64,000 nucleotides of DNA, taken from positions 13,416,183 through 13,480,182 of the forward strand of contig NC_133117.1 in the NCBI RefSeq assembly GCF_022965805.1, in the 5' to 3' direction. Every line of letters starts with the position of its first letter. Positions within the stretch are counted from its first letter, which is position 1. Origin of the DNA: Primulina eburnea. Lineage: Eukaryota > Streptophyta > Magnoliopsida > Lamiales > Gesneriaceae. The notes under the pieces were generated by a model. It had not been told where the DNA came from. It did not search any database and was given only the letters and a program-made list of their open reading frames with translations. Below are positions 2,186 through 30,651 of the stretch, piece by piece. The translations under genes were made by a program, and so were the position numbers.

Positions 2186-2283
2186 AACCGGGATCCCTAG
2201 ACTAGGATTGAGTCTAGTCTAAAACGTGGAGTCACGAGCTTGAGTGACAGTTATATTGATTGATATTGATTGATGTTGATTAT

Positions 2284-3072: not shown

Positions 3073-3085
3073 TGGTATCAGAGCT
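3073..3085 (+). other. Element A primer-binding site (initiator Met tRNA)
   Basis: TGGTATCAGAGCT lies five bases after the end of the 5' LTR. It is complementary to the 3' end of initiator Met tRNA, the usual primer for plant gypsy elements. Confidence 0.9.
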
Positions 3086-5394: not shown

Positions 5395-5510
5395 GCGTTA
5401 AATTATGAACGGGGACCAATCCGCCCGTTAAATTATGAACGGGTTAGATCGTGGTTGTGAAGCGTTAAATTATGAACGTGGATCAACTGGCCTGTTAAAT
5501 TATGAACAGG
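5395..5510 (+). repeat. Four GTTAAATTATGAAC repeats in B LTR
   Basis: The 14-mer GTTAAATTATGAAC occurs four times in about 115 bp. It is followed alternately by GGGG, GGGTT, GTGG and AGGG, and the second and fourth copies follow CCCGT or CCTGT. The pairs can form short stems. Also present at 13046-13162. Confidence 0.85.
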
Positions 5511-6150
5511 GATCTTATGTATGCGGCAGCGGATACGTCCCTGTCAGCCCAGTACTGTGGTATAGTCTGATCAGGCTCATTTATGTTACGGGTCACTCGC
5601 TTTGAAACATCCTCTACGCAAAATGATGAAGTTATGTATGTTAAAGTATGTTCAAGTATGCAACATGTTTATGAAAAGTTTAAGTTATGGCACGTCGAAG
5701 TATGTATGTACGTATGTTCAAGTTTATTATGCAAGTTCAAGTTCCAAGTATGTATGTCATATTTTCAAGTTGCATGTGGTTTTATTACGTATTACTCGTT
5801 ATTTCCAGTTTATACGTGTTGAGTCTTTAGACTCACTAGACTTGATCGATGCAGGTGACTATGTTGAGGAGACAGGAGGTGATGACCAAGGGGCAGGCTT
5901 GGGCTGAGTGGCAGGCTAAACCCGAGGACCGCAAGTTTATGTTTATGCAAATTTTTAAAATACTCTGATGTTTTGATTTGAACGTGAGACGTTTTGAGAC
6001 AGTTTACTTTAGCAAAATTTTATTGGTGACGGATGATGGTGAGATTTATGTTTATGAATGTTGAGTGACGACCGTATGAATGTTTTTATTTAAGAAAATT
6101 TTTAATTCTTCCGCAAATTTTAAGTAGTGTAGAATACGGTTCGTTACAGT

Positions 6151-6163
6151 TGGTATCAGAGCA
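6151..6163 (+). other. Element B primer-binding site (initiator Met tRNA)
   Basis: TGGTATCAGAGCA starts two bases after the 5' LTR and is complementary to the 3' end of initiator Met tRNA. Confidence 0.92.
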
Positions 6164-6383
6164 GTGTTCTTGTAAAGGGTTACGCCTACTGCCAGTCGCA
6201 AGAAGCTCTCGAAGTCACACCTCAAGTCTGTAAGTTTTAAAGTTTTGAGTTACGCTATGTACTATGCATTAGATCATGATTTCAGCATGTTTATGTTTTA
6301 AAGTTCAAATTTTGTGCATCTTATGATATTGGTATTATATTCATGCATGTTGGGTTTACGTGTTGGGTAATTGTTGGAACAGT

Positions 6384-7458
6384 ATGCCTCCTAGACGTAT
6401 GGTTAACCAGGAAGATAGGACTGAGGACAGGGAGCACCGAGAGGAGGAAAGAGCCAATCCTCCACCTCCACCACCACCTCCAGATATGCAGGCGCAGATG
6501 CTTGCAGGCATGACGCAGTTCTTCGCGCAGTTTGCGAGGAACCAGACTGCTGTAGGCCCCGAGGAGAGGCCTAGACCTGAGGCGGTATATGAGAGGTTCC
6601 GGAGGATGAGTCCGAAGGAGTTTGCGGGTACCACTGACCCGATGATAGCTGAAGGGTGGATCAAGTCCATCGAAGTGATTTTCGACTTTATGGAGCTGGC
6701 AGATGCTGATAGGGTACGTTGTGCCATTTTCTTATTAACTGGAGACGCCAGACTATGGTGGGAGAGTGCGTCAGTGGCAGTCAATTTACAGGTGCTGCCT
6801 TGGAATGGTTTTAAAGAGGTTTTCTACTCCAAGTACTTCACTGAGGAAGTACGAACCCGACTCACCAACGAGTTCATGACGCTGCGGCAAGGAGATAGTA
6901 GCGTAGCAGAGTTTGTGAGAAGGTTTGAGAGGGGGTGTCACTTCGTGCCCCTCATTGCGAACGATGCCCAAGCAAAGTTGCGGCATTTTCTGAATGGACT
7001 GCGGCCGATCCTGCGCCGCGATGTGAGAGTAGCTGGTCCCACTTCTTATGCAGTCGCCGTATCTAGAGCATTGGCGGCAGAGCAGGACCAGCGAGATATT
7101 GAGGCAGATAGGCAGGGCAAGAGGCCCTACCAGGCTCCACCGCAGCAGCAGAATCAGAGGCCTCAGTTTAAGAGGCCGTTTCAGGGACCGCCAGCGAAGA
7201 AGCCATATCATGGACCGCCTAAGGGCAAGGGTCCAGTTCAGCAGCAAGGGGCGCCTCAGAAGCCCGTTGCCTTCCCCGTGTGTCCTAAATGCAATCGTCA
7301 GCACCCGGGACAGTGCTTGTATGGATCAGGCAGGTGCTTCAAGTGTGGAGCTACAGATCATATGCTGAAGGAGTGCCCACAGTGGAAGCAACCAACCCAG
7401 GGCAGAGTATTTGCCATGCATGCACAGGAGGCGGACCCAGACACCACCCTACTGACTG
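6384..7458 (+). CDS. Element B gag (capsid and nucleocapsid), exon 1 of gag-pol
   Basis: Gag forms the cytoplasmic virus-like particle and binds element RNA. The ATG at 6384 (MPPRR) is chosen because gag of K, L and H starts in the same way; the open frame extends slightly further upstream without another ATG. A proline run (PPPPPPPP) and acidic N-terminus are followed by the capsid-like core of plant gypsy elements (about residues 70-240, with WIKSIEVIF, LWWES and LRQGDSSVAEF). A Q/P/K-rich basic linker and one CCHC zinc knuckle (CFKCGATDHMLKEC) end the protein. The frame then reaches a GT that looks like a 5' splice site; splicing joins it in frame to protease. Without splicing it would run on to a stop at 7578-7580. 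Confidence 0.9.
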
Positions 7459-7638
7459 GTAAACTTTTCTACCTAAGCTCGGTATTATATTGTCTTGCAT
7501 GTGGAATTTTTCTTCTTGGGATTATTAGCGTGCTATTAATACTTTGGGTACCTAAGGTTATTGAGTTCTATTGTGCTTAAGGTTTATGGTATAAATTTTG
7601 AGATATAAGTTAGTTTGTGTTGTGCTAACGCGTCTCAG
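7459..7638 (+). other. Candidate spliceosomal intron between gag and protease of B (180 bp)
   Basis: Begins GTAAAC and ends TCTCAG. It is T-rich and has a near-perfect branch-point motif TGCTAAC about 14 bases before the AG. Joining 7458 to 7639 gives [10 protein letters not shown], then [13 protein letters not shown], the usual start of a plant gypsy protease. The intron holds an in-frame stop (7578-7580), so Pol needs splicing. The gag-protease joints of I and J carry no such insert. Not proven without RNA. Confidence 0.8.
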
Positions 7639-9783
7639 GAAACATTTTCATTAAGAGACTATCCACAACCGCGTTGATAGACTCAGGAGCCACTCACTCC
7701 TTCATATCAGAGACGTTTGCCAATCATTTAGACCTCAAGTCCATCGGCCTAGACGTGAATTTTTCGGTAGTAGTCCCATCAGGGGAAGAGCTGTTAGCTA
7801 CCAGTGTGGTCAGAGATATCGACCTAGAACTGCATGGCCACCTAGTGTATGCAGATTTAATCATATTGCCGATGCCAGAATTCGACATTATCTTGGGCAT
7901 GGACTGGCTGACTAAGAATAGAGTTCTGATAGATTTTCAGAAGAGGTCAGTTTTAGTTAGACCGCCGGGCATGGAGCAATTTCTTTTTGAGCCAGCCAGA
8001 TGGAGAAGCTTTCCTCGCATGATTTCATGCATGCAGGCGAGGAGTTTGATCTCCAAGGGATGCCAGGCCTTTTTGGCTAGTATTATTTCAGCACCTGACG
8101 TGTCCACTCCATCCTTATCAGAGGTGCCAGTAGTCAAAGAATTTCCAGACGTCTTTCCTGATGACGTCACCGGTCTTCCACCAGAGAGAGAGGTGGAGTT
8201 TGCAATCGATCTCGTGCCAGGCACAGCGCCAATCTCCAAGGCGCCATACAGATTAGCTCCAGCTGAGATGTTAGAGCTCAAACAGCAGATTCAGGAGCTC
8301 CTCGACAAAGGGTTTATCCGCCCTAGTTTCTCACCGTGGGGCGCACCAGTGCTTTTTGTGAAGAAGAAGGATGGGAGCATGAGACTGTGCATCGATTACC
8401 GTGAGCTGAACAAGGTAACAATCAAGAACAAATACCCTTTGCCTAGAATCGAAGACTTGTTCGATCAATTGCAGGGAGCCACCGTGTTCTCTAAGATAGA
8501 TCTTCGATCAGGGTACCATCAGCTGAAAGTGAAGGATGCAGATGTCCACAAGACAGCTTTCAGGACCAGATATGGGCATTACGAGTTCTTGGTGATGCCA
8601 TTTGGATTGACAAATGCTCCAGCGATTTTCATGGACCTCATGAACCGAGTATTTCAGCCGTTCCTCGATCAATTCGTCATAGTATTCATTGACGACATTC
8701 TTATTTACTCGAAGAGCCATGAGGAGCACAACCAGCATTTGAGGACAGTTTTGCAGACCTTGCAGAGTCGCAAGTTATTTGCGAAATTCAGTAAGTATGA
8801 ATTTTGGCTGCAGAAAGTTGCATTTTTGGGGCATATAGTATCCAGCAGTGGTATTGAGGCGGACCCATCGAAAGTAGCAGCCGTTAAGGAATGGGTTGAG
8901 CCAAAGAACGCATCAGAAATCCGCAGCTTTTTGGGTTTAGCAGGCTACTACCGTAAGTTTATCAAGGGATTTTCGTCCATAGCAGTGCCGCTCACCTCAC
9001 TAACCAAGAAAAATGCAAAGTTTGTGTGGAGCGAGGAATGCCAGAAGAGCTTCGACACCTTGAAGCAAGCTCTTATTTCGGCGCCAGTGCTAGCCATGCC
9101 AACAGGGCAAGGTGAGTTTGTGCTTTATACCGATGCATCTAAGCTCGGATTAGGCGCAGTGTTGATGCAACAGGGTCGAGTTATAGCTTATGCTTCCAGA
9201 CAGTTAAAGGTACATGAGAAGAATTACCCGACTCACGATCTTGAGTTAGCCGCCGTTGTCTTCGCACTGAAAATTTGGAGACACTATCTATACGGCGAGA
9301 AATGTCAGATTTTCACCGATCACAAGAGTCTCAAATACTTCTTCACGCAGAGAGAGCTGAATATGAGGCAGAGACGGTGGTTGGAACTTGTGAAAGATTA
9401 TGATTGCGAGATTAGCTATCATCCGGGAAAAGCTAACGTCGTGGCAGACGCGTTGAGCAGAAAAGTGGCAGTAATAGCTCAGTTGACAGCTCAGAGACCA
9501 CTACAGTCGGAGATTCAGAAGTTTGGGCTAGAGATTTATCGTGATGGCAAGGCTCCTAGGCTGTCTAATCTGACAGTCAAATCTGGTTTGCTAGACCGAA
9601 TCCGAGCAGGTCAGTCTTCAGATGAGCAGTTACAGAAATGGAGACTGAAAGACGAAGCCAAGGGCAGTGTGCTGTACATAGTTTCAGACGGCATTGTGAG
9701 ATACAGAGGTAGAATGTGGGTGCCTAGTGTTGGTTCGATCAGACATGATATTTTGACAGAGGCACACGCATCTCCGTATTCCA
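7639..9783 (+). CDS. Element B protease, reverse transcriptase, RNase H and integrase start
   Basis: Continuation of the gag frame after the candidate intron. Protease has the catalytic motif DSGATHSF (from about 7678) and the flap-side motif [11 protein letters not shown] carries [30 protein letters not shown] and the catalytic FIDDILIYS (about 8686-8712). RNase H starts at [13 protein letters not shown] (about 9124) and includes [11 protein letters not shown] and NVVADALSR. The integrase N-terminus begins but is cut: at about 9783 the frame passes from AHASPYS straight to [11 protein letters not shown] in another frame. Part of the HHCC zinc-binding region is missing, and the original frame stops at 9813-9815. 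RT and RNase H look intact. Confidence 0.9.
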
Positions 9784-10929
9784 GAATGTCTCACATGTCA
9801 GCAAGTAAAAGCTGAACATCAGAGACCAGCAGGGTTGGTAAAGTCACTCCCCATCCCCGAGTGGAAGTGGGAGAACATTACTATGGATTTTGTTGTTGGG
9901 TTGCCGAGATCAGTCAGAGGATCGAATTCCATTTGGGTTATAGTGGACCGACTCACTAAGTCAGCGCATTTTCTGCCAGTGAAGACGACTTTCTCTATGA
10001 CGCAGTATGCGGAGCTTTATCTCAGAGAGATAGTTCGTTTGCATGGATTTCCAGTCTCTATTGTGTCCGACAGGGACCCGAGGTTTACATCGTCCTTCTG
10101 GAAGAGCTTACATGCAGCCATGGGGACGAAGTTGCTTTTCAGTACAGCTTTTCACCCGCAGACAGATGGCCAGTCTGAGCGAGTGATTCAGGTTTTAGAG
10201 GACTTGCTAAGGGCGTGCATAATTGATTTTCAAGGAACTTGGGAATCTAGACTACCTCTAGTGGAGTTCACATACAACAACAGCTTCCAAGCATCTATTG
10301 GTATGGCTCCCTATGAGGCGTTGTACGGGAGGAAGTGCAGATCACCAGTTCATTGGGATGAAGTTGGTGAGAGGACAGAACTTGGTCCAGAAATAGTTCA
10401 GCAGACTGCAGACGTTGTGGTCAAGATTCGTGACAGAATGAAGACCGCCCAGAGCCGTCAGAAGAGCTATGCAGATAAAAGGAGGAGAGATCTCGAGTTT
10501 GCCGTAGGAGATCACGTTTTTATCAAGATAGCACCTATGAAGGGTGTTATGAGATTTGGAAAGAGAGGTAAGTTGAGTCCGAGGTTTATTGGACCGTTTG
10601 AGATCTTGGACAGAGTTGGGACGCTAGCGTATCGTGTAGCCCTTCCGCCGAATCTGGCCGGGGTGCACAATGTGTTCCATGTCTCGATGTTGAGAAAATA
10701 TTTGGCTAATCCCTCTCATGTGCTGAGTTATGAGCCGTTACAGTTGACTCCAGACCTGTCTTATGAGGAGAAACCAGTCCAAATCCTAGACAGACAGGAG
10801 CGCAGGCTTCGGAACAAAGTGACTAAGCTAGTCAAAGTTCGGTGGTTAAACCAATCAGTGGAAGAGGCCACTTGGGAGTCAGAGATAGATATGAGACTTC
10901 GCTACCCGGAATTGTTCGGTAAGACTTAA
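9784..10929 (+). CDS. Element B integrase core and chromodomain-like C-terminus (frameshifted)
   Basis: Reads in the next frame from [14 protein letters not shown] (second half of the HHCC zinc-binding region). The catalytic DD(35)E core is recognisable: the first Asp in MDFVVGLPR, the second in SDRDPRF, and Glu in [12 protein letters not shown], with FHPQTDGQ between. A GPY/F-type module follows ([25 protein letters not shown]), then a short chromodomain-like tail ([24 protein letters not shown]), ending at the TAA after FGKT. Integrase inserts the cDNA into chromatin; the tail may steer target choice. With the upstream deletion no complete integrase can be made from this copy. Confidence 0.9.
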
Positions 10930-10950
10930 TTTCGAGGACGAAATTTTTAT

Positions 10951-10965
10951 AAGTGGGGGAGGAAC
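10951..10965 (+). other. Element B polypurine tract
   Basis: AAGTGGGGGAGGAAC lies directly before the 3' LTR, preceded by TTCGAGGACGAAATTT, a block also seen before the 3' LTRs of A and H. It would prime plus-strand DNA synthesis. Confidence 0.88.
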
Positions 10966-13799
10966 TGTAGTGCCCAAATTTAATACACGTATAACCCATG
11001 CATTCATTTAATTATTAAATCATTTAAATTAATTTTAAATGAGTTTTGGCGATGCATGATTTATTTAAATGCATTGTTTTAAATTATTTATGTTTATGTG
11101 ATGCACGTTAAAATGTCTTTCGAGTCTCATGTTTCAGGCGATCATTCGAGGCAGGATTGAGGAAAAGACCCGGTGACGATTTTTGGCAATTTTAGATATG
11201 GTATTTTATTTTAAGTTGAGTTTGGGGGCATTTTAAATAATTTAGTGAGTGTTAGCATTTTTGAATCCTAAATTTAATTATTTTGTGAGTTTTGATTTTA
11301 GAACTTTTAAAGTCTAATATGGTGTGTTATATTTTAATTATAGAGTTTTATTTAAAAAGTTGAGTGTGAGTTAGTGTTTTAATTAGTAGACAATTATTTT
11401 AGTAAACCAAAAGTTAGTCTTTTAATTAATTAAAACACACGCCTCACACACACAAACACACTTTTACACACAGTAATACACGCCTAAACACACACACAAC
11501 AATTCATTCAAGTTTTATTATTTTTTTTGAGAGAAAGATTAGGGTTCTTATTCCCCTAGAGTAGCCGCCCCCTTCCCTTCAAATTCCAGCAAGATTTCGG
11601 TCAGTTTTATTCAAGAGTAACGGTGCCACGTTCGCCCCGGATCAACCTCGCTCCTATCTCCGCTTCGGTGTCGCCTTTCGGTAACGTTATCATCAAAAAG
11701 GCACGTATACTCTGTTCTTGCTGTGTCGATCAAGTCATATTATGCGTTGTGTCGATTTTTATGCGTAAAAGTTATGTATGATGATAGTAGTTTGAGCGGA
11801 TCATGAATCGGATCAATTTCGAAGGAAAATTTTTAGATCAAAAACTCGTTTTTTACTGTTCATGTCAAAACTGCGATTTTTCTGTTCATATTTTGGGAAA
11901 ACTTTCAACGGCAAAAACGTGTAACTTTTCGATACCTTCGATTTGATATATGATTCGAAATTTTTGGACAAATATTGAGTGAGTTATGGCATTTTTCGTG
12001 GGACTGCTCAAACTGCGTTTCAGAAAAGTTATGATTTTGATAATTCTTGAAGTTTCAGTGTTGCAGGCTTCGTTGGAAACTGACGGGCGATCGTTGCTGC
12101 GTATAAGCATGCTAGTTTTGAGGTTTGGTGTATTTTTAAGATTTTGATGCAAGTTGTTAGGCGTTTGAATGAGTTTAAAGTTGTAGGAAAGGGATTGAGG
12201 TTAATTGCATAATTGGTGTTGCGTTGTGTAGTATAGTGGACGTCGTATTGTGAGGTGTTTGTATAAGTTTTGATTCAATGTTATGGTGTTCTAAGAAGAG
12301 TCCTAAGATGGTAAATTTCGTTCCATTGATGTGCAATTAGGAGATTAGGCAGGTGCATAAGTTTTCTCGCAGGTTTCGAAGCAACGAGCGAACACGGACC
12401 CAAACACGGACCCGGGCACGGGGTCCGTGCCTTTGTTATTCCTTCAGTGTCAATTTTGCGAGACAGCACGGACCCTTGCACGGATGAGGGCACGGGGTCC
12501 GTGCCTTTGGGTTTCACTTAGTGTCTTTTTCCAGTATCTACACGGACCCTTACCCGGACCCTGACACGGGGTCCGTGCCTTTGCTTCCTTTCAATGTCTT
12601 CTTCCAGAGTCTACACGGACCCCCATCCGGACCCGAGCACGGGGTCCGTGCCCCTTCCGTTTCCCGACACACTCTAGGCAGTATGTACACGGACCCTCTC
12701 CCGGACCCAAGCACGGGGTCCGTGTACCCTTGTTTTTGGGAAATATTTGTAAGTTCATTTTAAGTTAGATGTTATGGGTTAGTGCAAAGATTATTAAGGG
12801 CGTGTCGTGGGAAATTGTAGAAGGTCCTAAGGTCTGATTGAGCTTGAGAGTAAGCATGAGTTTTCTACGTCTAAGTAATGCAAGTTAAGTATGAAATTCA
12901 CGTTAGTAAGTAGCAGCAACGGCCCCAGTCGAAGTCCAACGAATCCCTCAACGCCAAGTAAGTATGTTGACGTGCAAGAAAACATTTTTTTTAGTTTTTG
13001 AGGTATGCTAAATGTCTTGTGACCAAATTATGTTAGGATTGGAAAGCGTTAAATTATGAACGGGGACCAATCCGCCCGTTAAATTATGAACGGGTTAGAT
13101 CGTGGTTGTGAAGCGTTAAATTATGAACGTGGATCAACTGGCCTGTTAAATTATGAACAGGGATCTTATGTATGCGGCAGCGGATACGTCCCTGTCAGCC
13201 CAGTACTGTGGTATAGTCTGATCAGGCTCATTTATGTTACGGGTCACTCGCTTTGAAACATCCTCTACGCAAAATGATGAAGTTATGTATGTTAAAGTAT
13301 GTTCAAGTATGCAGCATGTTTATGAAAAGTTTAAGTTATGGCACGTCGAAGTATGTATGTACGTATGTTCAAGTTTATTATGCAAGTTCAAGTTCCAAGT
13401 ATGTATGTCATATTTTCAAGTTGCATGTGATTTTATTACGTATTACTCGTTATTTCCAGTTTATACGTGTTGAGTCTTTAGACTCACTAGACTTGATCGA
13501 TGCAGGTGACTATGTTGAGGAGACAGGAGGTGATGACCAAGGGGCAGGCTTGGGCTGAGTGGCAGGCTAAACCCGAGGACCGCAAGTTTATGTTTATGCA
13601 AATTTTTAAAATACTCTGATGTTTTGATTTGAACGTGAGACGTTTTGAGACAGTTTACTTTAGCAAAATTTTATTGGTGACGGATGATGGTGAGATTTAT
13701 TTTTATGAATGTTGAGTGACGACCGTATGAATGTTTTTATTTAAGAAAATTTTTAATTCTTCCGCAAATTTTAAGTAGTGTAGAATACGGTTCGTTACA
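10966..13799 (+). repeat. Element B 3' LTR
   Basis: 2,834 bp, the same length as the 5' LTR and almost identical to it, including the repeat arrays at 12392-12725 and 13046-13162. Followed by the TSD AATTT. Confidence 0.95.
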
Positions 13800-13880
13800 A
13801 ATTTTGATCAGAAGGTAAGCTGATCAGAAAGGGATTGAGATTGATTATCTCCTGTGAATACTGACTCCTGTGATCATCAG

Positions 13881-14954
13881 ATATACCTCGTAGAAGAATT
13901 TCAGAAAGGGGTAGTACTTCGTCTGATCAGATAGATGTATCAGAAATTCAGATGAAAACTAAATTGAAAGAGTTTCAGTTATTTCAGCCGCCGATTCTGA
14001 GTGGTATCGGGACGTCTGAAGAGTATGAGAACTGGTTGGATGACATAGAAATACTGTTCGAATTACTTAATTGTACAGATGAACAGAGAATTAAACTGGT
14101 ATTCCCTCAGTTACGAGAAGCTGCCAGAAGTTGGTGGATTACACCCAAAGGAGTACTAGAACTGAGAGGTTCCCGAGGATTTCAGGGAGCTGGATCATCT
14201 GGATATGGTGATCAAGGAACAGACCCAGGACACACTTGATGATATAGTGGCAGGTATTGTTCCTTTATGATTATGGTGCATATGTATTGATATATACTAA
14301 TGCAATCGGTGTGATTATCCTTGATTGGGTGGCACTGATATATGCTTTACCTGTTGGTTCTGTATCTACTGTGGTATTGGTTCTTTACCTTTTTGGGAAA
14401 AGAATTGATATGAGTGATATTCTGTGATATATCATATACTGCAGAAAGTTGAGAATGAGATTGAATTAGACTAGCTTGTACTTGTAGTGTCTGATGATGA
14501 CTGCATGATTGATATTGATATATCGAACAAGTACAGATTTATTATAAAGTCTTGCCAGGAGATGGTAAGATTCGGACCTGAAATGGCCAATGAATGAATG
14601 ATATACAATAAGGGATTTAGATTTTGAATTCCTTGACATCTGTATTGTTTATGATTCGATGATTATCGAAAGGAATGGAATAATCCCTTATGTATTCAGT
14701 TGATGACTGAAGTGGAGCTTATCAGGGATTGATTTACTAATAGCAGGAAGTTTGCTACAGTCTTTCAGATGAGATTTCAGGTTGTCCTGTATCCGGAAGA
14801 GTGATTTCAGCCCTGATTTGATTCCAGGTATTGGTTTCATTTTAGAATTTCTTATAGACTGATACTGATTGAACTGAAAGAATTGAGATATCAGTTGAAA
14901 GAATTATTGTCTAAGAGTTAGAGTTACATTTGAATATATGTTTCTCTGGAAAGT
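13881..14954 (+). pseudogene. Element A gag-protease-RT remnant, first part
   Basis: The gag start context matches that of L and K, but the start codon is ATA (13883-13885). A gag core piece is readable at 13952-14150 (FQPPILSGIGTSEEYENW, ARSWW), then most of gag is missing and the sequence jumps to the gag-protease border (GGCAG/GTATTGTTCC near 14250). Diverged protease (GAACAAGTACAGATTTATTA near 14526) and RT start (GATGAGATTTCAGGTTGTCC near 14769) can be lined up by eye with H at 51840 and 52090. Many stops and frameshifts; no product expected. Interrupted at 14954 by solo LTR C. Confidence 0.8.
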
Positions 14955-15049
14955 TGTAGTAGCCCGAATTCCAAATTGGGTAATTAACGGATTAATGGTG
15001 ATTAAGAAGGTTTAATGTGTAATTTTGACCGTGGTCATAATCGGACGGA

Positions 15050-15325
15050 CCGAAGATGGTTCGGTAGCACCGAAGGGTTCGGACGATCCGAAGTGGGTTC
15101 GGTGGATCCGATCATTAGGTGTCAAGAGTTGATCGACACGTGGGAGTTCGGACGTTCCGAAGTGTAGGTTCGGTGGATCCGATCATGAGGTGTCAAGAGC
15201 CGATGGACACGTGGGAGTTCGGACGTTCCGAAGTGTAGGTTTGGTGGATCCGATCGTGAGGTGTCAAGAGCTGATGGACACGTAGGAGTTCGGACGTTCC
15301 GAAGTGGGTTCGGTGGATCCGAACA
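15050..15325 (+). repeat. Tandem TTCGGA-CGT-TCCGAA repeats in solo LTR C
   Basis: Four to five units of about 70-75 bp, each with an inverted TTCGGACGTTCCGAA-type motif (6-bp arms, CGT spacer), TTCGGTGGATCCGA and GTGTCAAGAG...GACACGTGGGA. It lies directly upstream of the TATA box, so it may be an enhancer-like zone. CACGTG/ACGTGG cores resemble G-box sites. Confidence 0.85.
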
Positions 15326-15330
15326 TAGCC

Positions 15331-15339
15331 TATAAATAG
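15331..15339 (+). promoter_or_regulatory. TATA box of LTR C
   Basis: TATAAATAG follows the repeat array and would place a transcription start about 30 bp downstream, near 15365. Confidence 0.65.
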
Positions 15340-16468
15340 TGCTCGGATTTCCTCATTTTGTATTGACAATCCTTGAGTTGTGTCTCATATTTGAGAGATT
15401 TGGAAGGTTTCTAGGGTTAGTTGCCGGTCGAGCGATAACCAAGAGCTGCCAGGATTGGTAGTTTAGCGACGCCTGAGTTACGAGGCAATCGACATCAAAG
15501 GGCTGTCGACGGACGAAGGTAAACCCTAAACCTTTGGTAGTACTAGGGAGTACTGGTTTTGCTAGTTGAGCATGGTAGTATTGTTCATTGGGTGCTTTTG
15601 ATGCGTAGGCTTGTTCTAGACCTGATTAGCGGTGCTGCGTAAGGCTAGGCTTGCTGTGATAGAGGTACGAAAGTACTATCCGAGATATCCTGGTTGAGTA
15701 TACATTCTTATATGTGTTGCATGATTATGTGGTGCATTGATATATGTCATATGATGCATGCTATTATGTCACGTTTATTACTGCACGTTGCATTTCATGT
15801 TGAGCCGTATCTCCTTCGAGATAGCCTTTACTGTTGAGCTGTATCTCTTTCGAGATAAGCTATATATCTTGTGGGGCCGCTCAGCCCTGTCTTGTCTTGT
15901 GGACGCATGGACACCGAGAGTACACAGTGGCCGACGGGTCGGGAGGGCTTCGGTGATCCGGGACATTTTAGGTCCACGTCTGTTCTTGCAGTGGATGCAG
16001 TGACCCAGAGGTTGGACCGCGCGGCACTATCCACTTGGCGCCTCTAGACTGAGCATTTTGAGATCTTTTGTGACTCCTGTTTCTTGACTACCCTGGTATC
16101 ATATCATAGCATGTGCATTTCATATAGGTTTGTATACTCATGCTTTTGTACTGGGCGTTCTTATCGCTCACGTCCTTGGTTTTTGTTTATCTTGGACACC
16201 CCATTCCCACGGGGCAGGCCTCAGGTTGGACAGCTCAGGAGGAGGAGGAGGAGGACGTTGAGTAGCTGGTTGGTTTAGTTCTTCAGTACTTTTTGTTTCG
16301 ATATGGTTGTACCGTATATTTCAGTTTAGTTGAGTTGTTCTGGATTTTCGATTGGGTTGTATATCTATCATTTGTTGGTATTTCCGCTGTTATCTCTGAT
16401 TATTATTAATTAAGTTAGTTGCATGCTTAGTTCTCAACTAGTAGGTGATTCTGGAACGGGTCACTACA

Positions 16469-18137
16469 AAAGTACTTCAGTTCCAATGATGGATTGATAA
16501 ATCCTGTGTTCAGCAATATTCTGAAGACATTATGCTCGTTTTATCTATGACATTTTGATATATTCGCAGCGTATGATTGAATTGAATATTTTGGGACTGA
16601 GATTGTTGTATACAGAATTGTTCGGATATGAATCTCGATTGTAACAGACTGTATTCAAAGTCGGTGATATCTGAAGATGGTATACTGACTGATTATAGTA
16701 CTGCTGAGATAGTGATCAGTGACTGAGAACGACATTGAATATGGCAGCATTTCAGAGATGTCAGAAATGTCAGAGATTGTGTCTTATGCAGTCATTAGAT
16801 CAGCATTGCGTACTGATATTCTGAATCTGATCCGATATTATTATCACTCTGAGTATGTGTTTGATATCGATTGTTATGAACCATTGAGATTATATACAGT
16901 GCAGTCGAGTCAGAACTGATTTTGAGGATTTAAAGCAGTTCAGAAGTTGAATCAGACTGTTCAGAACTTGATTTTGATAGTCAGAACAGTGTGTCAGAGC
17001 CGAATACCAGGTAGGTAATATTTTATTTTATATGATTAGCTGATTTGTTTGTGTCAGATATTCGGATTTGAATGACAGGTATTGTCAGATACACACAGTA
17101 GTAGATTCAGTACTATTCTGGTAACAGGAAATGTGTGATAATTCGAATAGACAGTTGTGATATAAACAGATAAAATCAGTTATGTCAGACATTGTATGGA
17201 AATGTCTAAATCGCTGACTGATGAAGACAGAAAGATAGAAACCAAGAGATTGATTATCTTGATTACTGATTTCTAAATAGAAATGGGAGTACATTTCTAT
17301 GGATCTGGTGATGGGATCACCGAAATTTTGCCAAGATTGTACCAGTAGGTAATTATGATTGAATGATTGTTCAAATCTCCCTATGTTATATTGTACAGGA
17401 TGACGTACAAATATGACCAGACGATTGAGAGGTATGTCGGAAACGGGGGTCAGATTGTATTGAATGCCAAAGTTGATTTTATCAGACTGTGATATTCGTT
17501 TGATTTTGTACTTTTGGCTGAGTGTACAGCATGATTGTTCATCTATGATTTATAGATTGAAGGATAGTCAGAGTAAACTATCCTGATACTGGAGGATATC
17601 CAGGAAATGTAGTGCTTGATTTTAGCACTAGTTGACATGATTCATTGTCACTTTTGATATATTGTACAATAATAGCTATTAGAGGAGTATCGAAATAGCT
17701 CTAGTCCAGATATTGTACAGTGAGAACTGGTATTTTCCTTTGAATGGAAATGATATGGCAGTATTACCTGAGATCGGATTTGATAAATCAGAAGAAATGA
17801 GGATAGCTCAGAATGCATAGACATAAATTAATATGCCAACGTCGGACGATGACTGTTGGTATTTGAAACCGAAGATTGAATATATCTTTGACTGGGATTA
17901 ACAGATTTGGTAACAGATGATGATATTAAATTATTATGGAACTGTTGCACTGGTGATTGGTATATACAGATGTTGTATAGCCATTGTTCTGAGGTTGATT
18001 CTATCACGAGTGATTTCGTGGATATGAGTTTATTGCAGTTTTGTATATCTCCTTCTTATATCTGATTTGAGATATGACATGATTATCTATATTCCATGAA
18101 TTGATTGATTGTGATTTCGAGGACGAAATCATATCTT
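16469..18137 (+). pseudogene. Element A pol remnant, second part (RT to integrase)
   Basis: Continuation of the eroded pol. Recognisable by position against H: the integrase start near 17272-17320 (AAATGGGAGTACATTTCTATGG against the EWKWDHISMDFV region of H), TGACGTACAAATATGACCAG near 17400 and GACTATCCTGATACTGGAGG near 17577 (TIQTLEDM region). It ends with TTTCGAGGACGAAATC at 18117. Full of stops, and shares specific lesions with K. No protein expected. Confidence 0.8.
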
Positions 18138-18150
18138 AGAGGGGGAGAAA
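18138..18150 (+). other. Element A polypurine tract
   Basis: AGAGGGGGAGAAA immediately before the 3' LTR. It is intact although pol is not, as expected if this end is still used for trans-mobilisation. Confidence 0.87.
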
Positions 18151-20385
18151 TGTAAGGCCCGAGATAATAAAGATGATATTATTTTAATCCGAGAGTATGT
18201 AATTGGAAACTTTTGGAGTGTTGAATTATATTCCCAGATGTTTGCAATTATTTAGGATTGAAATTGAATTAAAAAGAGTTTTGAGGACCAAATTGCAAAT
18301 AGGAAGAGTTCAGGGGCTAAAGTGTAATTATGACTTGAGTGACACTTGTCACACATGCAATTGAAGTATATATATTGGTTCTTCAATTCCCACAAGAAAA
18401 GAACCGAGCAACTTTGCTCTGGAAATCCCTTTTGCTTCTTCGTATGTTTAAGCGGTGATTTTGACAATTCCATCTATCCGATTTTGAATCTGAACACGGT
18501 GTTGTATTCCTCTCGACACGAGCTACAACTGGACGTAAGTTTCATTGAGTTTTATTATCATTTGAAAAGATGATGTTGTAGGAATTTGATATAATTCATA
18601 TATGATGTTCTTGACATGTTAGACATCGTAGAACCGAAGTCAGATCAGGAAACAGATTGATTCTGGAATTGTTATGATTTTTCAGATTATATTAATTGAA
18701 ATTGAATAGATTTGGATTATAGACTGATTACAAATCGTATCGAATATGGGTTATGATTTGTAATTAATATCTGGTGATATGGTATTGACGGGAATACTGA
18801 GATTGTGCTGTTATGCCGCTGATTTGAGTTAATTCAGATTAATCAGATTCAGAGTTGAATTGAGAATGGAATATTGATATTATGATTCTCGATATATCGT
18901 TTCAAATTTAAAGAGACAGTCTTGAGTTCAGAACTGATATTGATATTGTGCCTGTTTTATATTGTCATTTCCAGATTGAGAATGGACCGAGATAGAGTCG
19001 GGACTTCTTCTTCTTTTGAGCGAGAAGATAAAGGTATAAATTAATGTTGAGTTGGGATTGCACAACTCGAGGGAGGTTTGACTCGAGTTTCCCTAAATCA
19101 CATACTGTACCTTATTGCATTGATATTTGCATTGAGTTGATAGATATACTTGTTCTCTTGATATTAGATAACAGGTATTAGACGAGTTATCTTGTGACAG
19201 AAGTGCCGGATAGTGGTGGTATCGCCACGGCACATTGCACGATGTCTCAAGATAGGATATTAGCGATAGAGCTACAGTCCTTGACGGTTAGGTCAGGACA
19301 CTGGATGTTTGGTTATATCGAGTAATGGAATCTATTACGGAATTCGATATAGGAACACCATATTTTGTTATATCGAGTAAAGGGTATTGGAATTCTTCTA
19401 TTACGGAATTCGATATAGGAATACCAGGGCACTGGTTATATCGAGTAATAGAGATTATGGTTCCATCCTTTACGAAATTCGATATAGGAATACCACATCT
19501 GGAAACCGGGATCCCTAGACTAGGATTGAGTCTAGTCTAAAACGTGGAGTCACGAGCTTGAGTGACAGTTATATTGATTGATATTGATTGATGTTGATTA
19601 TGTTCCTGAATATGGTTCATGTCCTTTTATGTTCCGGATATTGGTACATATTTAGAATAGAAATTATTCTTGATATTGAATTATGTTCCTGATATTGGTA
19701 CATGTTTAGAATAGGAGTTATTCTTGATATTGATTATGTTCCTGATATTGGTACATGTCTAGAATAGGAATTATTCTTGATATTGAATTATGTTCCTGAT
19801 ATTGGTACATGTTTAGAATAGGAATTATTCTTGATATTGATTTATGTTCCTGATATTGGTACATGCTTAGAATAGGATTTATTCTAGAGATTGAATTATG
19901 TTCCTGATTAGGGTACATGTTTAGAATATGATTTATGCTTGTTATTGATTTATATCATGAGGTTGATATAGGATATGATATTTGTTATATGCTCTTATAT
20001 GATTTATATGATTGCATGTATACATGATTTATACTGAGAATGTAATTCTCACCGGAGTTATCCGGCTGTTGTCTTGTCTGTATGTGTGCATGGCAACAGG
20101 TGGGATAGGAGCGGGGTCAAGACGAGAACGAGGCTGGATTAGATAGCGTGGAGATCCGGGCTTCAGAAGCAACTTAGGATTCAGCACCGACATGTAGTTG
20201 AACCTAGTTGGATTATTGTAGATGACATCAGATTTGTATGTTCATGTTTAACATGTAATTTGATTTTAATTACATTACGTTTCCGCTTTGCATTTTAAAA
20301 GAAAAATTTTTAGACCCTGTTTATTATGAATGATTAAATATTCCTAAAGACGATTAAGGAATGGATTAGCGTCCGGGTCCCCACA
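18151..20385 (+). repeat. Element A 3' LTR
   Basis: 2,235 bp, the same length as the 5' LTR, with the same palindromic repeats (19311-19500) and the same 53-54-bp array (19600-19960). Followed by TSD GATCA. Confidence 0.95.
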
Positions 20386-23039: not shown

Positions 23040-24147
23040 TTGTCCAACCAAGTCCTATCAAAGTCTTCACGAATTCATAGTGGTTCATTATCATCTGTTC
23101 CGTCAACATCCATGGATGACACCCTTTTACTAAAACATTAATAGTGCATTATAGTGTCTTCCAACTCTTCCCAATTTATGTATTAAAAGTACTCCCTAAT
23201 TGGAGTTGCAAGTACAAAACTCCATAAATGATCTTCAAGATCCTCACTATGAAATACTTACTTCGCTTGACTTGTCAAGATAAAATAGTCTAATTTGAAT
23301 CATTTTCTATTGAGGTTTACCAACATGAAACCAAGATCATCTACTTTAATACCATTATTATTCTCCAATCAATTACCTTTAAACATTGAAATTTGAAATT
23401 ATTGGTAATCAACTACCCATATGTCTTCTATTACTCCATAAAAACCCATAACTTACAAAATAAGATTTTTATCTTTTGCAATATCTACAAAATATGATTT
23501 TTATTCTTTGAACTAGCAACTTGCATTGTCTTTGTGACTAAGCTTCTCCAGAGTCTAGAACAACTCGTATATAATCATGCTCTTTTGTACAATAAGTAAC
23601 CACATACAATCAAATAATTATATTTCTGATACTTGAAGGGTCGAATGGTAACTACACGTGCAACCTATATTTTTATATGATATTTTTTTATCATGGGCAA
23701 ATATGGTAATGAATGTATGCCAATACATAAAACTAAAGAAACATACAAGATCACAAAACCAAGTAATAAACATTTGCTCATGCTCATCTTGTAACCACTT
23801 CTTGTACTTTTCCCTGTGAGGAAATCTTTCATCCAAATACCACATGTATTCCCTAATGAAATTATTAAGAATAAATAAACAATAGAATGTAAGCAAAATG
23901 CATTAAAGTATTAATAAGTTAGATAAATTACTCGATATATAGATAAATCTCAACATTATTTTTCAATATGTAACGAGGTGCTTGCTTCAACTCATCGTGA
24001 CCAGTGGAGTGCACTAGTGCACCTTATTAAGGATTAGTAAGTTATATTTGTCTATGAATTGATGGTATCCAAATTATGTGCACACTAGATAGTTAGTCTG
24101 AGCAAAATTCAACACCTCTTCAACAATAAAACATTCAACTATGCACC
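23040..24147 (-). pseudogene. CACTA (En/Spm) TPase remnant, C-terminal part (DUF4218-DUF4216)
   Basis: Reading the minus strand from 24147 gives the DUF4218-like start of VECFIVEEVLNFAQTN, then YLDERFPHREKYKKWLQDEH (23750-23840), a DUF4216-like segment with GFYGVIEDIWVVDY (about 23400-23450), NNNGIKVDDLGFMLVNLNR and FILTSQAK (about 23270-23370), and an acidic tail (MDVDGTDDNEP, about 23090). Order and motifs are those of TNP2-type CACTA transposases, which cut and rejoin the DNA element. Many stops interrupt it. It continues upstream at 28048-28513 after the insertion at 24148-28047. Confidence 0.8.
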
Positions 24148-26380
24148 TATAAAGGCCCGAAAATTCGTGTTTGAAAATTTGCGGAAAAATTAAAATTTTC
24201 TTTTTAAAATAATTAAAATGCCTCATCCACAAAATAAACTGATAAATCAAGTTTAATGTTTAAAATAGCAGCGGAAGAAATTATTGCTCACAAAATAACA
24301 AATAAAGTAATCCAACAACTGATAAAAATATTTGAGCATAAAAATGGCAAGTGCTGTAAATGAGGTCCTCGGGTTCCACTACTGCCGACCCAAGCTAGCT
24401 CACTGGTCCCCGTCCTCGGCCCCAACATCATCAGTACCTACAACAATCAAGTCTAGTGAGCCTAAAGACTCAGCATACATATATCGTAAATAACGAGTAA
24501 ATAATATAGTAAAATTGCATGGGAGTAAAAATATCATGTCATGAGGCATAACGTGAAAATAACTTGTCATGAGCAATTATAATACGTGCATAACTGACTG
24601 AAAATCATAAGTGACAATGTTTGCTCCTTGGAGCCCTGTAATAAAATATCATGTCATAAATTTTCTGTTGAGATTTTGGTCTACGCAAGTGGCCCCTGCA
24701 CTGAACTGAACTGAACTGACCGGTAACTGCCGATCGGACCGGTAACTGTCGACCGAGTGAAGTAATGAACGTCTGATCAGACTAATGCCACAGTATACTG
24801 GGTGGTACATAACTGAACCAACCGATAACTGGCGACCGGATAATACAATGCTCCCATGATAATGAAATGGCCACAAGTAATATTTCATAAATCTCAAAAA
24901 TGAATATTTTCTATTTTTATGCACGTAATATAATTAACTGGCATAATGAAATATCCTGTATTATTTTATCACATGGATTGGATCTTTCTCAGGCTCGCTG
25001 CAACCTAAATTTATCAGGAACAATATACAAATGATTTTCTTGACCAAACTTTGTAATTGAATCCAAAAACGAGACAATTACGCCCAACGACTTCGTATTT
25101 AATCATGACTCTGTGCCAACCCAAACCAACACCGAACCATCATTTAGTCATGACTTAAAAACACTTAAAATGATGAAATAATGCTCCTAAAATGATGCAA
25201 GTAGAAATTTTGGTGAATGGAGGCCAAAACATGAAACGCTCTATCCAGAGTCAATTTGGCACATCGCACCGTAATTTCTCGTACGACTTCAAAAATGATC
25301 CGAATCACGAACGGCCAAAAACATGACCTTCCCAATTCAATGAGGCACTGTCCAGTCCAAGTCCATAGGCTAAAGCCAACCAAGAAATCGAACGAGCCAA
25401 TGAACCCAAGCAGCAAGTTGTTGTCCACAAAATACAGCAGCTGTGCTTTGGTTTCCTTGCGTCGTTTGCGAGGCTAATGGCCATTGGGGCTTGAACCACC
25501 GACCAGAACCTCTTACCAACATCCTAAGTAATGATTTGTACCATGGCTAAGGGCCCTAGGCCAGCCACAATTCGCACCACACCCGAAACCAACCGAAAGT
25601 TCCACCCGAGAGCACCCTTGCATGCCCGTGGTGTTTTGCTTCGTTTGCTGTCTCGTGTCGTTCCAGTGGCCATTTGATTGACCATGGCACGATCTAGACA
25701 TCCAGAGGTATGGTATGAACCGTGGGTAAGGGCCATAGGCCAACCAAGATCGACACCATTCCTCAAAACCGAAGGTTACACTTGTTGTAAAATGAGAAGG
25801 CCGAAGGGGGAAGGGGCTGTTTTTATGTTTTGATTTATAAACCGATGCAACCATGGACCAAGCCTCAAAAGGGCAACTTGGTCACGTCTTAGACATGCTA
25901 GGGAGGTGTTCAAACCAGGGTTACAGGCCCAAGAGCCAACCAAGGTTCGATCCATCCATGGACAAGCAAAACAAAATTTTCGAAACCCATTTCTGCACTT
26001 ATGGGGAGGTTGCTGTCATTTCGATTTCCAGCCAGCATGGGGGTTGAACTAATGGGCCAACATGGTCGTAAACCATTCTAGTACATGTCTAGGAGCCTAA
26101 TTGCGAGCCTAGGGTCGAACCAATACCTGAAACCATCAAAAACGTGCAAACCGTGAAGCATGAAATGGAATGAAACCGTGCAGAATTTTGTTTACCAACA
26201 AGCTGCTGTCATATTTCGGTTTTGATTGAAAGATCATGATCATGTAGTGCTTAAAATTCATAATACAACTTGATTGAAGAGAAAAGAAGAACATATGCAT
26301 GCCTGGTTTTGTTTTGAAAATAAAACAAACGAAACACAACGATGCGGCGCGGAGGAGATGGAGCGATCTTCTTGATCTTG
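24148..26380 (-). repeat. Gypsy LTR fragment, minus strand (left part of the chimera)
   Basis: On the minus strand it ends …CCGCAAATTTTCAAACACG…GGCCTTTATA, an LTR 3' end. The block at 24400-24480 (reversed) shows the TGAGTCTTTAGGCTCACTAG and …GGGGACCAGTGAGC layout seen in the B LTR at 5818-5935. The 25240-26110 part holds several diverged repeats around GGGCC(A/C)TAGGCCAACCAAG. It has no LTR start, so it is truncated near 26380, where pol sequence begins. No gene seen. Confidence 0.7.
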
Positions 26381-26403
26381 CTTCTACTCAATTATTTCTT
26401 GCT

Positions 26404-26456
26404 ATTATTCTCTCGGTAATCGATGCACAGCCTCATACTCCCATCCTTCTTCTTCA
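26404..26456 (-). pseudogene. Gypsy reverse transcriptase fragment
   Basis: The minus strand reads [16 protein letters not shown], the fingers motif of gypsy RT (same as B at about 8359-8402). It is cut at 26456 by the copia gag piece and resumes in the same orientation at 26675 with the RT start (LLDKEFI-like). Confidence 0.85.
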
Positions 26457-26678
26457 CAGAAAAACTACTCCAAAGAAGAGCCTTATACTTGCTACAACTG
26501 TGGCAAAACTGGTCACTACATTGCTGACTGTCCCAAACCAAAAAATGACAGTCGAGGATCTGCTGAAAGAGGGAAGGAGCCCTATGAGTGTAAAAAAAGA
26601 ACCAAAGATGACAAGAATTCATTCAAAAAGAAACATGAGGTGCTTCTAGCTGAGGAGAGCAAATCTAAAATGGGCGGA
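26457..26678 (+). pseudogene. Copied Ty1/copia gag zinc-knuckle segment
   Basis: 222 bp matching 30389-30610 of copia element F with a single difference seen by eye (GCTGAC against ACTGAC). It encodes CYNCGKTGHYIADCP and the following lysine-rich stretch. It is inserted in a minus-strand gypsy RT fragment. Short overlaps at both joints (CA at 26457-26458, CGGA at 26675-26678) suggest microhomology-guided template switching. Confidence 0.88.
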
Positions 26679-27589
26679 TAAACTCCTTGTCGAGAAGCTC
26701 CTGAATCTGCTGCTTGAGTTATAACATTTCAGCTGGAGCTAATCGATACGGTGCCTTAGAGATTGGCACAGTGCCTGGCATAAGATCGATTGCAAACTCC
26801 ACATCTCTCTCTGGTGTAAGGCTGTGATGTCATCAGGAAAGACGTTTGGGAATTCTCTGACTACTGACACCTCTGATAAAGACGGAGTGGGTATGTCAGG
26901 TGCAGACGAAGAACAGAGTTCTGATTGATTTTCAGAAGAGGTCGGTATTGGTTAGACCGCCGGGCATGGAGCAATTTCTTTTTGAACCAGGCAGATGGAG
27001 AAGTTTCTCTCGTATGATCTCTTGCATGCGGGCTAGGAGACTTATTTCTAAGGGGTGTCAGGCCTTCTTGGCCAGCATTATTTCTGCACCTGACATACCC
27101 ACTCCGTCTTAATCAGAGGTTTCAGTAGTCAGAGAATTCCCAAACGTCTTTCCTGATGACATCACAGCCTTACACCAGAGAGAGATGTGGAGTTTGCAAT
27201 CGATCTTATGCCAGGCACTGTGCCAATCTCTAAGGCACCGTATCGATTAGCTCCAGCTGAAATGTTATAACTCAAGCAGCAGATTCAGGAGCTTCTCGAC
27301 AAGGGGTTTATCCGCTGCTTGAGTTATAGCATTTCAGCTGGAGCTAATCGATACGGTGCCTTAGAGATTGGCACAGTGCCTGGCATAAGATCGATTGCAA
27401 ACTCCACATCTCTCTCTAATGTAAGGCTGTGATGTCATCAGGAAAGACGTTTGGGAATTCTCTGACTACTAACACCTCTGATAAAGACGGAGTGGGTATG
27501 TCAGGTGCAGAAATAATGCTGGCCAAGAAGGCCTGACACCCCTTAGAAATAAGTCTCCTAGCCCGCATGCAAGAGATCATACGAGAGAA
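26675..27589. repeat. Three copies of a gypsy protease-RT segment in -,+,- orientation
   Basis: Segment 1 (26675-26906, minus), segment 2 (26905-27314, plus) and segment 3 (27314-27589, minus) all come from the region between the protease end and RT start ([42 protein letters not shown]). Segments 2 and 3 form an inverted repeat with arms of about 275 bp (27003-27282 against 27315-27589) and a loop of about 30 bp. Segments 1 and 2 form another (26675-26906 against about 27086-27314). Only a handful of differences are seen between copies. The plus-strand piece resembles B at about 7911-8322 but is not identical. No full protein is encoded. Confidence 0.88.
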
Positions 27590-27650
27590 TGTGGGGCCAG
27601 TGACCACATGCTGAAGGAGTGCCAACAATGGAAGCAGCCTACTCAGGGCA
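27590..27650 (+). pseudogene. Gypsy gag zinc-knuckle fragment
   Basis: 61 bp reading CGASDHMLKECQQWKQPTQG, homologous to the B zinc knuckle (CGATDHMLKECPQWKQPTQG). It sits between segment 3 of the inverted-repeat cluster and the 5S-type LTR. Confidence 0.85.
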
Positions 27651-28047
27651 TGTAAGGCCTGGGGCCGAAGAGGGCGGGGGGTGATCGCCGGTGCCATCAG
27701 TTGCACGGACAATGAGCGGCTCCTGGCAGGCTTCTAGGTGGAGGGAACATGAATGAATCGACCCACACGGTAATGAGAGGGATTCCGAGACTGTTCAATG
27801 TAATGGACTGTACAGTTGAAGATGAATTAAAAGATTTGATTGGTACTACTCATATCATGAAGGTGCATCTTTTTTTCGGTAGCTCATCACATAAGAACTC
27901 CAAAGTTAAGCGTGCTTGACATGGGGCAATTTTGGGATGGGTGACCTCCTGGGAAGTTTCCTAGGGTGTGTGTGAGTGGGGACATAAGCACGCTAGAAAG
28001 ACTCGTCTTGGTACAGTGAGGACAGTCGTCAAATCTGGGGCGTTACA
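27651..28047 (+). mobile_element. Complete Cassandra-type LTR with 5S rRNA-like core (397 bp)
   Basis: Starts TGTAAGGCCTGG, ends GGGGCGTTACA. It contains the 5S-like region at 27884-27960 and resembles 1-245 over its last 245 bases. It has no TSD of its own: GGGCA lies on the left and GCACC on the right. The right flank instead pairs with the GCACC at 24143-24147, so this LTR is one end of the chimeric insertion. Confidence 0.8.
27884..27960 (+). promoter_or_regulatory. 5S rRNA-like RNA polymerase III internal promoter
   Basis: AGTTAAGCGTGCTTG (27904-27918, box A) and GGATGGGTGACCTCCTGGGA (27936-27955, box C) agree with the plant 5S rRNA internal control region as I know it; the segment between is altered. 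It is better preserved than the copy at 82-160 and could still bind TFIIIA. Confidence 0.8.
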
Positions 28048-28513
28048 GCACCCTTTAGTATGATTTTGATTTTGCACATAACCTTTCAAAATCTTCATGT
28101 ATATTTCAAATGGGTATATGTACGTATACTAAACCGATCCACACAATTTGACCTCATGCACAACGTGAAAATTTAAATGAATAATTATATCAAAATATGA
28201 ATTGGGAAATCCTTTTCAGTTAAACAAAATATCATGACAATCTCTATTTCATATCATCCAACATTAAAACATCTATCATTTTATTACATGACACATTGAA
28301 GAATAAACACAAGCGAGTGATAGTGTCTTTGACTCTTTTGGGAGAGACAACATGGATTGCCACTTGAGGCAATTGTTGCATTAAATTGTGGTAGTCATGT
28401 GACTTAAGGGCAACAAGTTTCAAGTCCTTCATCGATAGAAGGTTTTTAACACTGGATGAGTAACATGAAGTGAGTTGTATTCCAACAAAATAATTCAAAT
28501 TATTTATTTTTTT
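28048..28513 (-). pseudogene. CACTA (En/Spm) TPase remnant, middle part
   Basis: From 28498 the minus strand reads KDLKLVALKSHDYHNLMQQL, then VKDTITRLCLFFN, close to the conserved GLKSHDCHVLMQQ and ITRLCxFFN motifs before DUF4218 of plant CACTA transposases. After a diverged stretch, YPFEIYMKILKGYVQNQNH is read at 28055-28115 and the frame runs into the TSD GCACC. It continues at 24147 beyond the chimeric insertion. The upstream side is cut near 28513 by copia element F. The long open stretch (84 codons) suggests this part decayed slowly. Confidence 0.85.
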
Positions 28514-29581: not shown

Positions 29582-30651
29582 ATGTCTTCTTTCAATAAAA
29601 TCCCAATGTTTTCTAGAAAATATTTTGACGACTGGAAAACCAGAATGCAGGCCCATCTAGCTGCACAGGACGATGATATGTGGTACATCATTACTGATGG
29701 ACCCATGAAGATTTTGAAAGCCAACACAGCTGTAACCATGTCTAATGGGGAACCACAACGTATAGAAAAGCCCAGAAAAGAATGGACAGCTGAAGACAAG
29801 AAGAAAGAAAATTTAGACAATGTGGCGAAGGATATCTTATATAAACGCTGGATAAATTCACTTTAAGCAAAATCAAAATGTGCAAAACCGCCAAAGAAAT
29901 AAGGGAGAAACTAATCCAGCTTTGTGAAGGAAACGAGCAAACTAAGGAGAACAAGCTATCAGTTGCTGTTCAGAAATTTGACAATATCAAGATGAAGTCT
30001 TGAGAATGAAAGAGTCGGTAGTATTATCAATGAGCTAAATGCACCTGGAAAAGTGTGTTCAAATAAATAGATAGCACTGAATGTTGTCAGGGGTCTTCCC
30101 AAAGAATGGGATGTCAAGACCATGGTAATGAGGAAGTCAAAGGACATGAACAAGGTCGAACTTCGTGACTTATTTGCTGATCTAAAGGGCTACGAGTTTG
30201 AACTACAAACCAGAGAAGGGGAACCTTCTTCACCGGCTGCCACAACTGATTTAATTGCTGTCAGACTGGAACCAACTGGTTTAGGTGACAAGTATGCTGA
30301 TTAGCTAAGCAATGACGCAATGTCATTGTTTGTCAGAAAGTTTGGTAAAATTGTGAGAAGAAATCAAGGAAACTTCCAGAAACAATATCAGAAAAACTAC
30401 TCCAAAGAAGAGCCTTATACTTGCTACAACTGTGGCAAAACTGGTCACTACATTACTGACTGTCCCAAACCAAAAAATGACAGTCGAGGATCTGCTGAAA
30501 GAGGGAAGGAGCCCTATGAGTGTAAAAAAAGAACCAAAGATGACAAGAATTCATTCAAAAAGAAACATGAGGTGCTTCTAGCTGAGGAGAGCAAATCTAA
30601 AATGGGCGGAAACTGACAGTGAGGAGTCAGAACCTGAAAGCCCAAGCAGTT
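29582..30651 (+). pseudogene. Copia F gag (broken)
   Basis: Gag of a copia element, the particle protein. The ATG at 29582 starts MSSFNKIPMFSRKYFDDW, the usual start, followed by MQAHLAAQDDDMWYIITDGP. The frame stops at about 29866 and continues in another frame (KMCKTAKEIREKLIQLCEG). Further breaks follow near 30000, then NVVRGLPKEWDVKTMVMRKS and LRDLFADLKGYEFE (30080-30205). After a stop at about 30302 the last part has a CCHC zinc knuckle (CYNCGKTGHYITDCP) and a lysine-rich tail to 30610. The gag end and the protease are missing: solo LTR G and element J follow. The 222-bp piece 30389-30610 has a near-identical copy at 26457. Confidence 0.85.

Follow-up and report, generated by a model that had tools for sequence, protein, structure and literature searches.

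A window of 64,000 nucleotides from the 812-Mb genome of Primulina eburnea (C17:13416183-13480182) carries, at window positions 24148-28047, an insert that interrupts a CACTA transposon and is flanked by a 5-bp target site duplication (TSD). The insert is a real TSD-bounded chimera, probably a template-switched long terminal repeat (LTR) insertion with a local repair patch on top of it. Its outer ends come from two different elements, a gypsy retrotransposon (family G) and a Cassandra-type terminal-repeat retrotransposon in miniature (TRIM), and both are U5 ends in opposite orientation. Between the two LTR parts lie pieces of a second gypsy family (family H) and a fragment of a copia element. 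It is proposed, with a probability of roughly 0.6, that reverse transcription fused two minus-strand cDNAs, each primed by a tRNA, that the product integrated, and that the resulting insert was later patched by repair with local copia sequence.

Insertion site and outer ends

The sequence GCACC stands on both sides of the insert (24143-24147 and 28048-28052). On the minus strand, each of the two flanks (23960-24142 and 28053-28219) contains a part of DUF4218, a domain that we take to be a marker of CACTA transposases, and both parts extend to the joint. Joined with a single copy of the TSD and translated from the minus strand, the flanks give a single DUF4218 match with no gap at the joint, scored at 66.8 bits and covering query 2-67 and model 32-97 (one stop within the translation was written as X), while the longer flank alone reaches only 43.1 bits. 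A weak Pfam match of the joined flanks to an unrelated virus family lay below the cut-off and was disregarded. When the joined flanks were used as a query against the genome, 39 places were found, two of which are the locus's own halves. All of the remaining paralogous places (37/37) are uninterrupted across the joint, at 76-84% identity and with spans no more than 3 bp off the matched query. The empty site is demonstrated as far as a single assembly permits, and the 5-bp TSD and the restored empty site are those of an ordinary LTR-retroelement integration. The ends are not: an ordinary element has matching LTRs in direct orientation, so that one outer end is U3 and the other U5, whereas here the U5 of family G lies on the left and the U5 of Cassandra on the right.

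The left part (24148-26410, minus strand) comprises ~2.26 kb from the 3' end of a family G LTR whose full length is ~3.0-3.17 kb, with the match ending near 26407, and the outer left end of the insert is the exact 3' tip of this LTR. Family G LTRs span TGTAGAACCC...GGCCATTATA. In four family copies (L004-L007) a tRNA-Met primer site follows next, exact in L007 and with one base altered in L004-L006; thus, the outer left end is U5. The LTRs of the family end in TATA ahead of the primer site, and a solo copy (L002) likewise runs from TGTAGAACCC to TATA within the TSD GCTCA. The unusual tip of the insert is therefore normal for the family, and the possibility that it represents a mutated CA was rejected. 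A minus-strand solo LTR with a replaced middle was also rejected, because the right end is a full sense Cassandra LTR and not the U3 end of G.

The right part (27651-28047, plus strand) is a complete Cassandra-type 5S TRIM LTR of 397 bp, whose U5 forms the outer right end. The published consensus boxes A and C are found at 27904-27946, 18 nt apart, and the Rfam 5S match scores 22.1 bits, under the gathering score of 38. Cassandra LTR pairs are present in 14 loci. Locus L021 is a complete TRIM with two LTRs of 397 bp, one of which has a 1-bp gap, the TSD GGACT and a 70-nt internal part that contains the Met primer site TGGTATCAGAGC. Since the primer site comes after the end of the TRIM LTR, the insert has U5 at its outer right end as well. 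In the 19 best-ranked other places the match starts at 27646 and not at 27651, because GGGCA precedes the TRIM 3' LTR. The same five nucleotides end the gag piece of the insert, so that the joint between gag and the 5S LTR is a 5-nt microhomology at the border of the polypurine tract (PPT) and U3.

A preliminary description of the window had reported the GCACC duplication and a CACTA element restored on removal of the insert, and had recognised the 3' end of a minus-strand gypsy LTR at one end and a complete 5S-type (Cassandra-like) LTR at the other. The ungapped DUF4218 match with the 37 empty places, the family G copies, and L021 together with the LTR-pair loci bear out these observations.

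L021 (C16:16380465-16383879) is nested in the gag-pol region of an H gypsy element, and matches of the same layout ~36 kb away, near C16 position 16346000, suggest a duplication. At C9:2951925-2952896 (in L071 and L075), two full Cassandra LTRs stand in tandem, and after them come internal sequence and 38 bp that match a third LTR; this may be an array. The window itself holds a second Cassandra 5S LTR fragment at 3-246, which ends in GGGGCGTTACA, is 87% identical to the LTR of the insert and has no primer site after it.

Interior pieces and the copia patch

The middle of the insert is composed largely of family H sequence. A 48-bp reverse transcriptase (RT) piece (26411-26458, minus strand) adjoins the G LTR. 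It is followed, beyond the copia piece, by three pol pieces of alternating orientation, referred to below as the zigzag: P1, from the pol linker (26679-26904, minus strand); P2, from the protease-RT linker (26905-27314, plus strand), inverted relative to P1 and P3; and P3 (27315-27589, minus strand), an inverted copy of P2. The inverted arms measure 233 bp (99% identity) and 280 bp (98%); those of 280 bp are separated by a 25-nt spacer and are read as a fold-back. A gag zinc-knuckle piece (27590-27650, plus strand), ending in the GGGCA described above, completes the middle.

Identity to 18 H loci amounts to 92-95% for P2, 91-97% for P1, 83-100% for the RT piece (98-100% in L011, L012 and L025) and 78-97% for the gag piece. 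In six elements picked by their paired G LTRs, the pol pieces reach 67-76% and the RT piece 75-88%. Moreover, of six H loci fetched upstream, five have a different LTR end ahead of their primer site, and no primer site was seen in the sixth, L038. On these grounds the G LTR is assigned to one gypsy family and the pol and gag pieces to another. Two sources for the pol pieces were rejected: G elements, given only 67-76% identity in the six elements, and gypsy element B of the window, which is only about 85% identical. As a direct source, an H element of the L021 kind, with Cassandra nested in it, was considered, but gag order and orientation do not fit.

Judged by eye, the joint at 27314 is consistent with fold-back priming across six bases, one of them mismatched, and the P1/P2 and P3/gag joints each show ~2 nt of microhomology. 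The joint between the LTR and the RT piece has no definable microhomology. Long queries spanning the joints, a search that the preliminary description had called for, found no second copy among the best 40 of 6209 and the best 40 of 2659 candidates. Whole-genome patterns with up to three mismatches covered two joints, gag/5S and LTR/RT. The LTR/RT pattern occurs in the insert only; the gag/5S pattern occurs in the insert and in one place on C10 with three mismatches, the changes lying on the gag side.

The copia gag zinc-knuckle piece (26457-26678, plus strand) is 222 bp long and replaces ~33 bp of H, lost between P1 and the RT piece. Its donor lies at 30389-30610 (plus strand) of the window, within a degenerate copia copy 3.7 kb away, and the two are identical at 221 of 222 positions. 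The best 40 of 1833 candidate places consist of the piece itself, this neighbour and 38 others at 82-91%. The neighbouring copy is diverged, with 82-89% identity to 10 relatives over the main aligned stretches, and it has nine states in common with the insert, one of them a one-base insertion, that are absent from these relatives. The piece is flanked by 6 and 2 nt of microhomology. A donor less than 5 kb away that is the clear best match, together with joints marked by microhomology and a small deletion, is the pattern of proximal repair-mediated duplication, and on sequence grounds the copia piece looks like break repair with local filler and not like a product of particle packaging. One of its joints lies at most ~3 bp from the base of the P1/P2 stem; thus, a hairpin-induced break would be a natural cause.

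The gypsy pol pieces in both orientations, the copia gag piece and the gypsy gag piece had all been named in the preliminary description and were found again here, the first as the 233-bp and 280-bp inverted arms. The joints that it listed stand, but one more has to be added at ~26410, where the H RT piece meets the G LTR. Its view that gypsy, copia and 5S parts were mixed in one packaged molecule is opposed by the local copia donor. The locus illustrates how a genome-wide donor search splits a seemingly single chimeric event into retrotransposition and local repair.

Insertions with U5 at both ends

Of all features of the insert, its U5-to-U5 build most deserves to be followed. Among 20 Cassandra loci examined (L021 and L070-L088, of which L071 and L075 overlap), the sole further U5-to-U5 insertion is L082 (C13:23824887-23826055), in which the TSD TAAGT encloses an LTR in inverted orientation, a stretch of three bases, a truncated LTR, an internal part and an LTR. 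An exact genome-wide pattern of head-to-head Cassandra LTR starts matched one place (on both strands), L089 (C1096:338743-339546), which consists of an LTR, nine bases with a PPT-like end and an inverted LTR within the TSD ATATC; this pattern covered the U5-out (head-to-head) form and does not demonstrate a bias towards U5-out over U3-out. In L082, L089 and the insert alike, the Cassandra LTR arm extends from the start of U3 to the end of U5, and the joint lies at or beside the PPT/U3 border. In retroviral replication, plus-strand strong-stop DNA covers this same stretch, from the start of U3 to the end of U5.

That a single genome contains three U5-to-U5 insertions bounded by a TSD suggests that integrase may do without the pairing of a U3 with a U5 end, and that unfinished cDNAs of unrelated elements can obtain an end from a TRIM. 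It is conceivable, though on present evidence rather doubtful, that reverse transcriptase here repeatedly joins the growing minus strand to Cassandra plus-strand strong-stop DNA at the PPT/U3 border, giving linear DNA with U5 at both ends that is accepted by integrase. If this is true, LTR insertions whose ends are inverted and unequal would form a class that tools requiring direct LTR pairs overlook, and broken cDNAs of other families would receive from the coding-free TRIM an end fit for integration. In the titles and abstract openings of the literature searched, no TSD-bounded U5-to-U5 LTR insertion was found, which is no proof of absence.

Origin of the chimera and comparable systems

Both ends, the TSD and the empty site lend good support to a single integration of a chimeric cDNA. 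The course of events that we infer includes the order of polymerisation, reverse transcriptase as the joining enzyme, the hairpin as the cause of a break and the order of the two steps in time. Inside the particle or soon after, minus-strand cDNAs would have started at their own tRNA primers on a gypsy G RNA and a Cassandra TRIM RNA, and both would have moved onto gypsy H templates. Read inward, the left arm would lead from G U5 into U3 and then into H RT and H pol, and the right arm from Cassandra U5 through U3 to the PPT and then into H gag. The arms would have been joined end to end via copying of the complementary strand and the fold-back from P2 to P3, and the linear product with U5 at both ends would have been inserted into CACTA by integrase with a 5-bp duplication. 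In a later step, both strands may have broken at the foot of the P1/P2 hairpin and been repaired with 222 bp of the copia copy 3.7 kb off, with the loss of ~33 bp of H.

Some observations tell against this course of events. Nonhomologous switching in retroviruses is at least 1000-fold rarer than homologous switching, as stated in the part of PMC3187697 consulted, and many switches are needed here. Neither P2 nor the G LTR part has a close donor among the best 40 places scored in each search: matches to P2 reach at most 95% and other copies of the G LTR at most 92%, although shorter pieces attain 97-100%. The RT piece alone separates H (83-100%) from G (75-88%) poorly. Changes absent from all sampled family copies number 36/1806 in the G part and 6/397 in the Cassandra part, as against 1/233 in P1, 6/414 in P2 and 6/280 in P3. 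With 42/2203 for the LTR parts and 13/927 for P1-P3, the difference is not significant (p 0.37) and gives no clear time order.

Other data on timing are as follows. Divergence is 3.1-6.5% within eight G LTR pairs, which were matched up by position, and 0-4% within 14 Cassandra LTR pairs. Among the loci compared for private changes in the G part, L003 and L042 are the same place, and the zero for L003 carries no meaning. One change in 202 columns is common to all three pol copies and absent from the 18 H loci, which dates the zigzag near the arrival of the H sequence at this site. The proposition that the zigzag is younger than the LTR parts was dropped, as its p of 0.04 had set 8/927 differences in P1-P3 against the unlike 42/2203 private changes. 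The single copia difference is compatible with a young patch, 222 bases being too few to decide.

The preliminary description had the insert enter as one molecule by template switching. A single chimeric integration with ends from different elements agrees with this, but the locally copied copia piece does not. In its full form, with G, H, copia and Cassandra RNAs co-packaged and template-switched in one virus-like particle, this explanation would account for the single TSD, the unbroken empty site and the microhomology at the joints. However, at 221/222 positions the copia piece agrees with a degenerate copy lying 3.7 kb off, the next best of 40 scoring 91%, and for a distant source to have landed beside its own copy, sharing with it nine states absent from 10 relatives, would be a great coincidence, which makes co-packaging of all four very improbable. 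Alternatively, a staggered break in CACTA could have been filled in one event by end joining of retroelement cDNA and local copia copying, the TSD being a product of fill-in. The copia patch and the zigzag would then have a common cause, the copia joint and the end of P2 would mark the same break position, and the lack of a time difference among the parts would be expected; proximal capture is, moreover, already described in the consulted part of PMC2671141. Such a capture is nevertheless unlikely, as chance would have to supply both an exact duplication of 5 bp and an intact U5 tip at either end, and L082 and L089 repeat the U5-to-U5 build with exact 5-bp duplications and no long filler.

If host enzymes had instead joined two incomplete cDNAs in the nucleus, each with one good U5, before normal integration, the U5-to-U5 build would arise without a strand switch, and the 2-5 nt microhomologies at the H joints would be in keeping with end joining. 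The recurring joint at the PPT/U3 border (L082, L089 and the insert) is better suited to strand-transfer intermediates, and nuclear joining is accordingly judged improbable. Inverted repeats are difficult to assemble, and an assembly artefact at the palindrome was considered; it has a negligible probability in view of arms that differ by 1.3-2.5%, several unrelated joints, an exact TSD and the empty site.

The proposed fusion of two cDNAs during reverse transcription has partial counterparts in other systems. Grass template-switching complexes are TSD-bounded and consist of three LTRs in direct orientation, which come from closely related elements and of which the outer two are nearly identical (Sabot and Schulman 2007, PMC1950507). 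The insert resembles them as a TSD-bounded complex insertion attributed to abnormal switching between packaged RNAs. It differs in that its outer LTRs are dissimilar, come from two families and lie in opposite orientation with U5 outward, that it has no third, inner LTR, and that four families are mixed. BARE-2 and long Veju also join sequences of different origin by abnormal template switching (PMC13317346, PMC1950507); they are described as element lineages, whereas the insert is a single insertion with inverted, unequal ends. Pairwise recombinants of Arabidopsis Onsen, as presented in the consulted part of PMC5668417, are comparable in that recombination is proposed to occur in reverse transcription of co-packaged RNAs, but it stays within one family.

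The right arm resembles Cassandra TRIMs in its 5S boxes, and family copies possess the Met primer site and the TRIM internal part (PMC7215508, PMC10853983). The sections of these two papers available to us describe tandem arrays and reshuffling and contain no inverted U5-to-U5 form. For the copia patch, human proximal repair captures offer a parallel: according to the part of PMC2671141 consulted, their donors lie less than 5 kb away, captured segments average 162 bp with a maximum of 619, and microhomology spans 2-9 nt. The copia donor distance, the 222-bp length and the flanking microhomology are within these ranges. In contrast to the human cases, the patch is found in a plant and inside a retroelement, and ~33 bp were lost compared with the 1-15 nt tabulated there (PMC2671141).

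Apart from the insert, the window contains a gypsy element A at 832-20385, with 2236-bp LTRs that are 99.5% identical, which apparently holds the nested gypsy element B at 3315-13799. Element B has ~2835-bp LTRs (99.6%) and an SH3_Tf2-1 domain, and its match to a chromodomain falls slightly short of the cut-off. Tandem repeat units of ~107 bp are located within the LTRs of element A, at 2308-2635 and 19627-19953.

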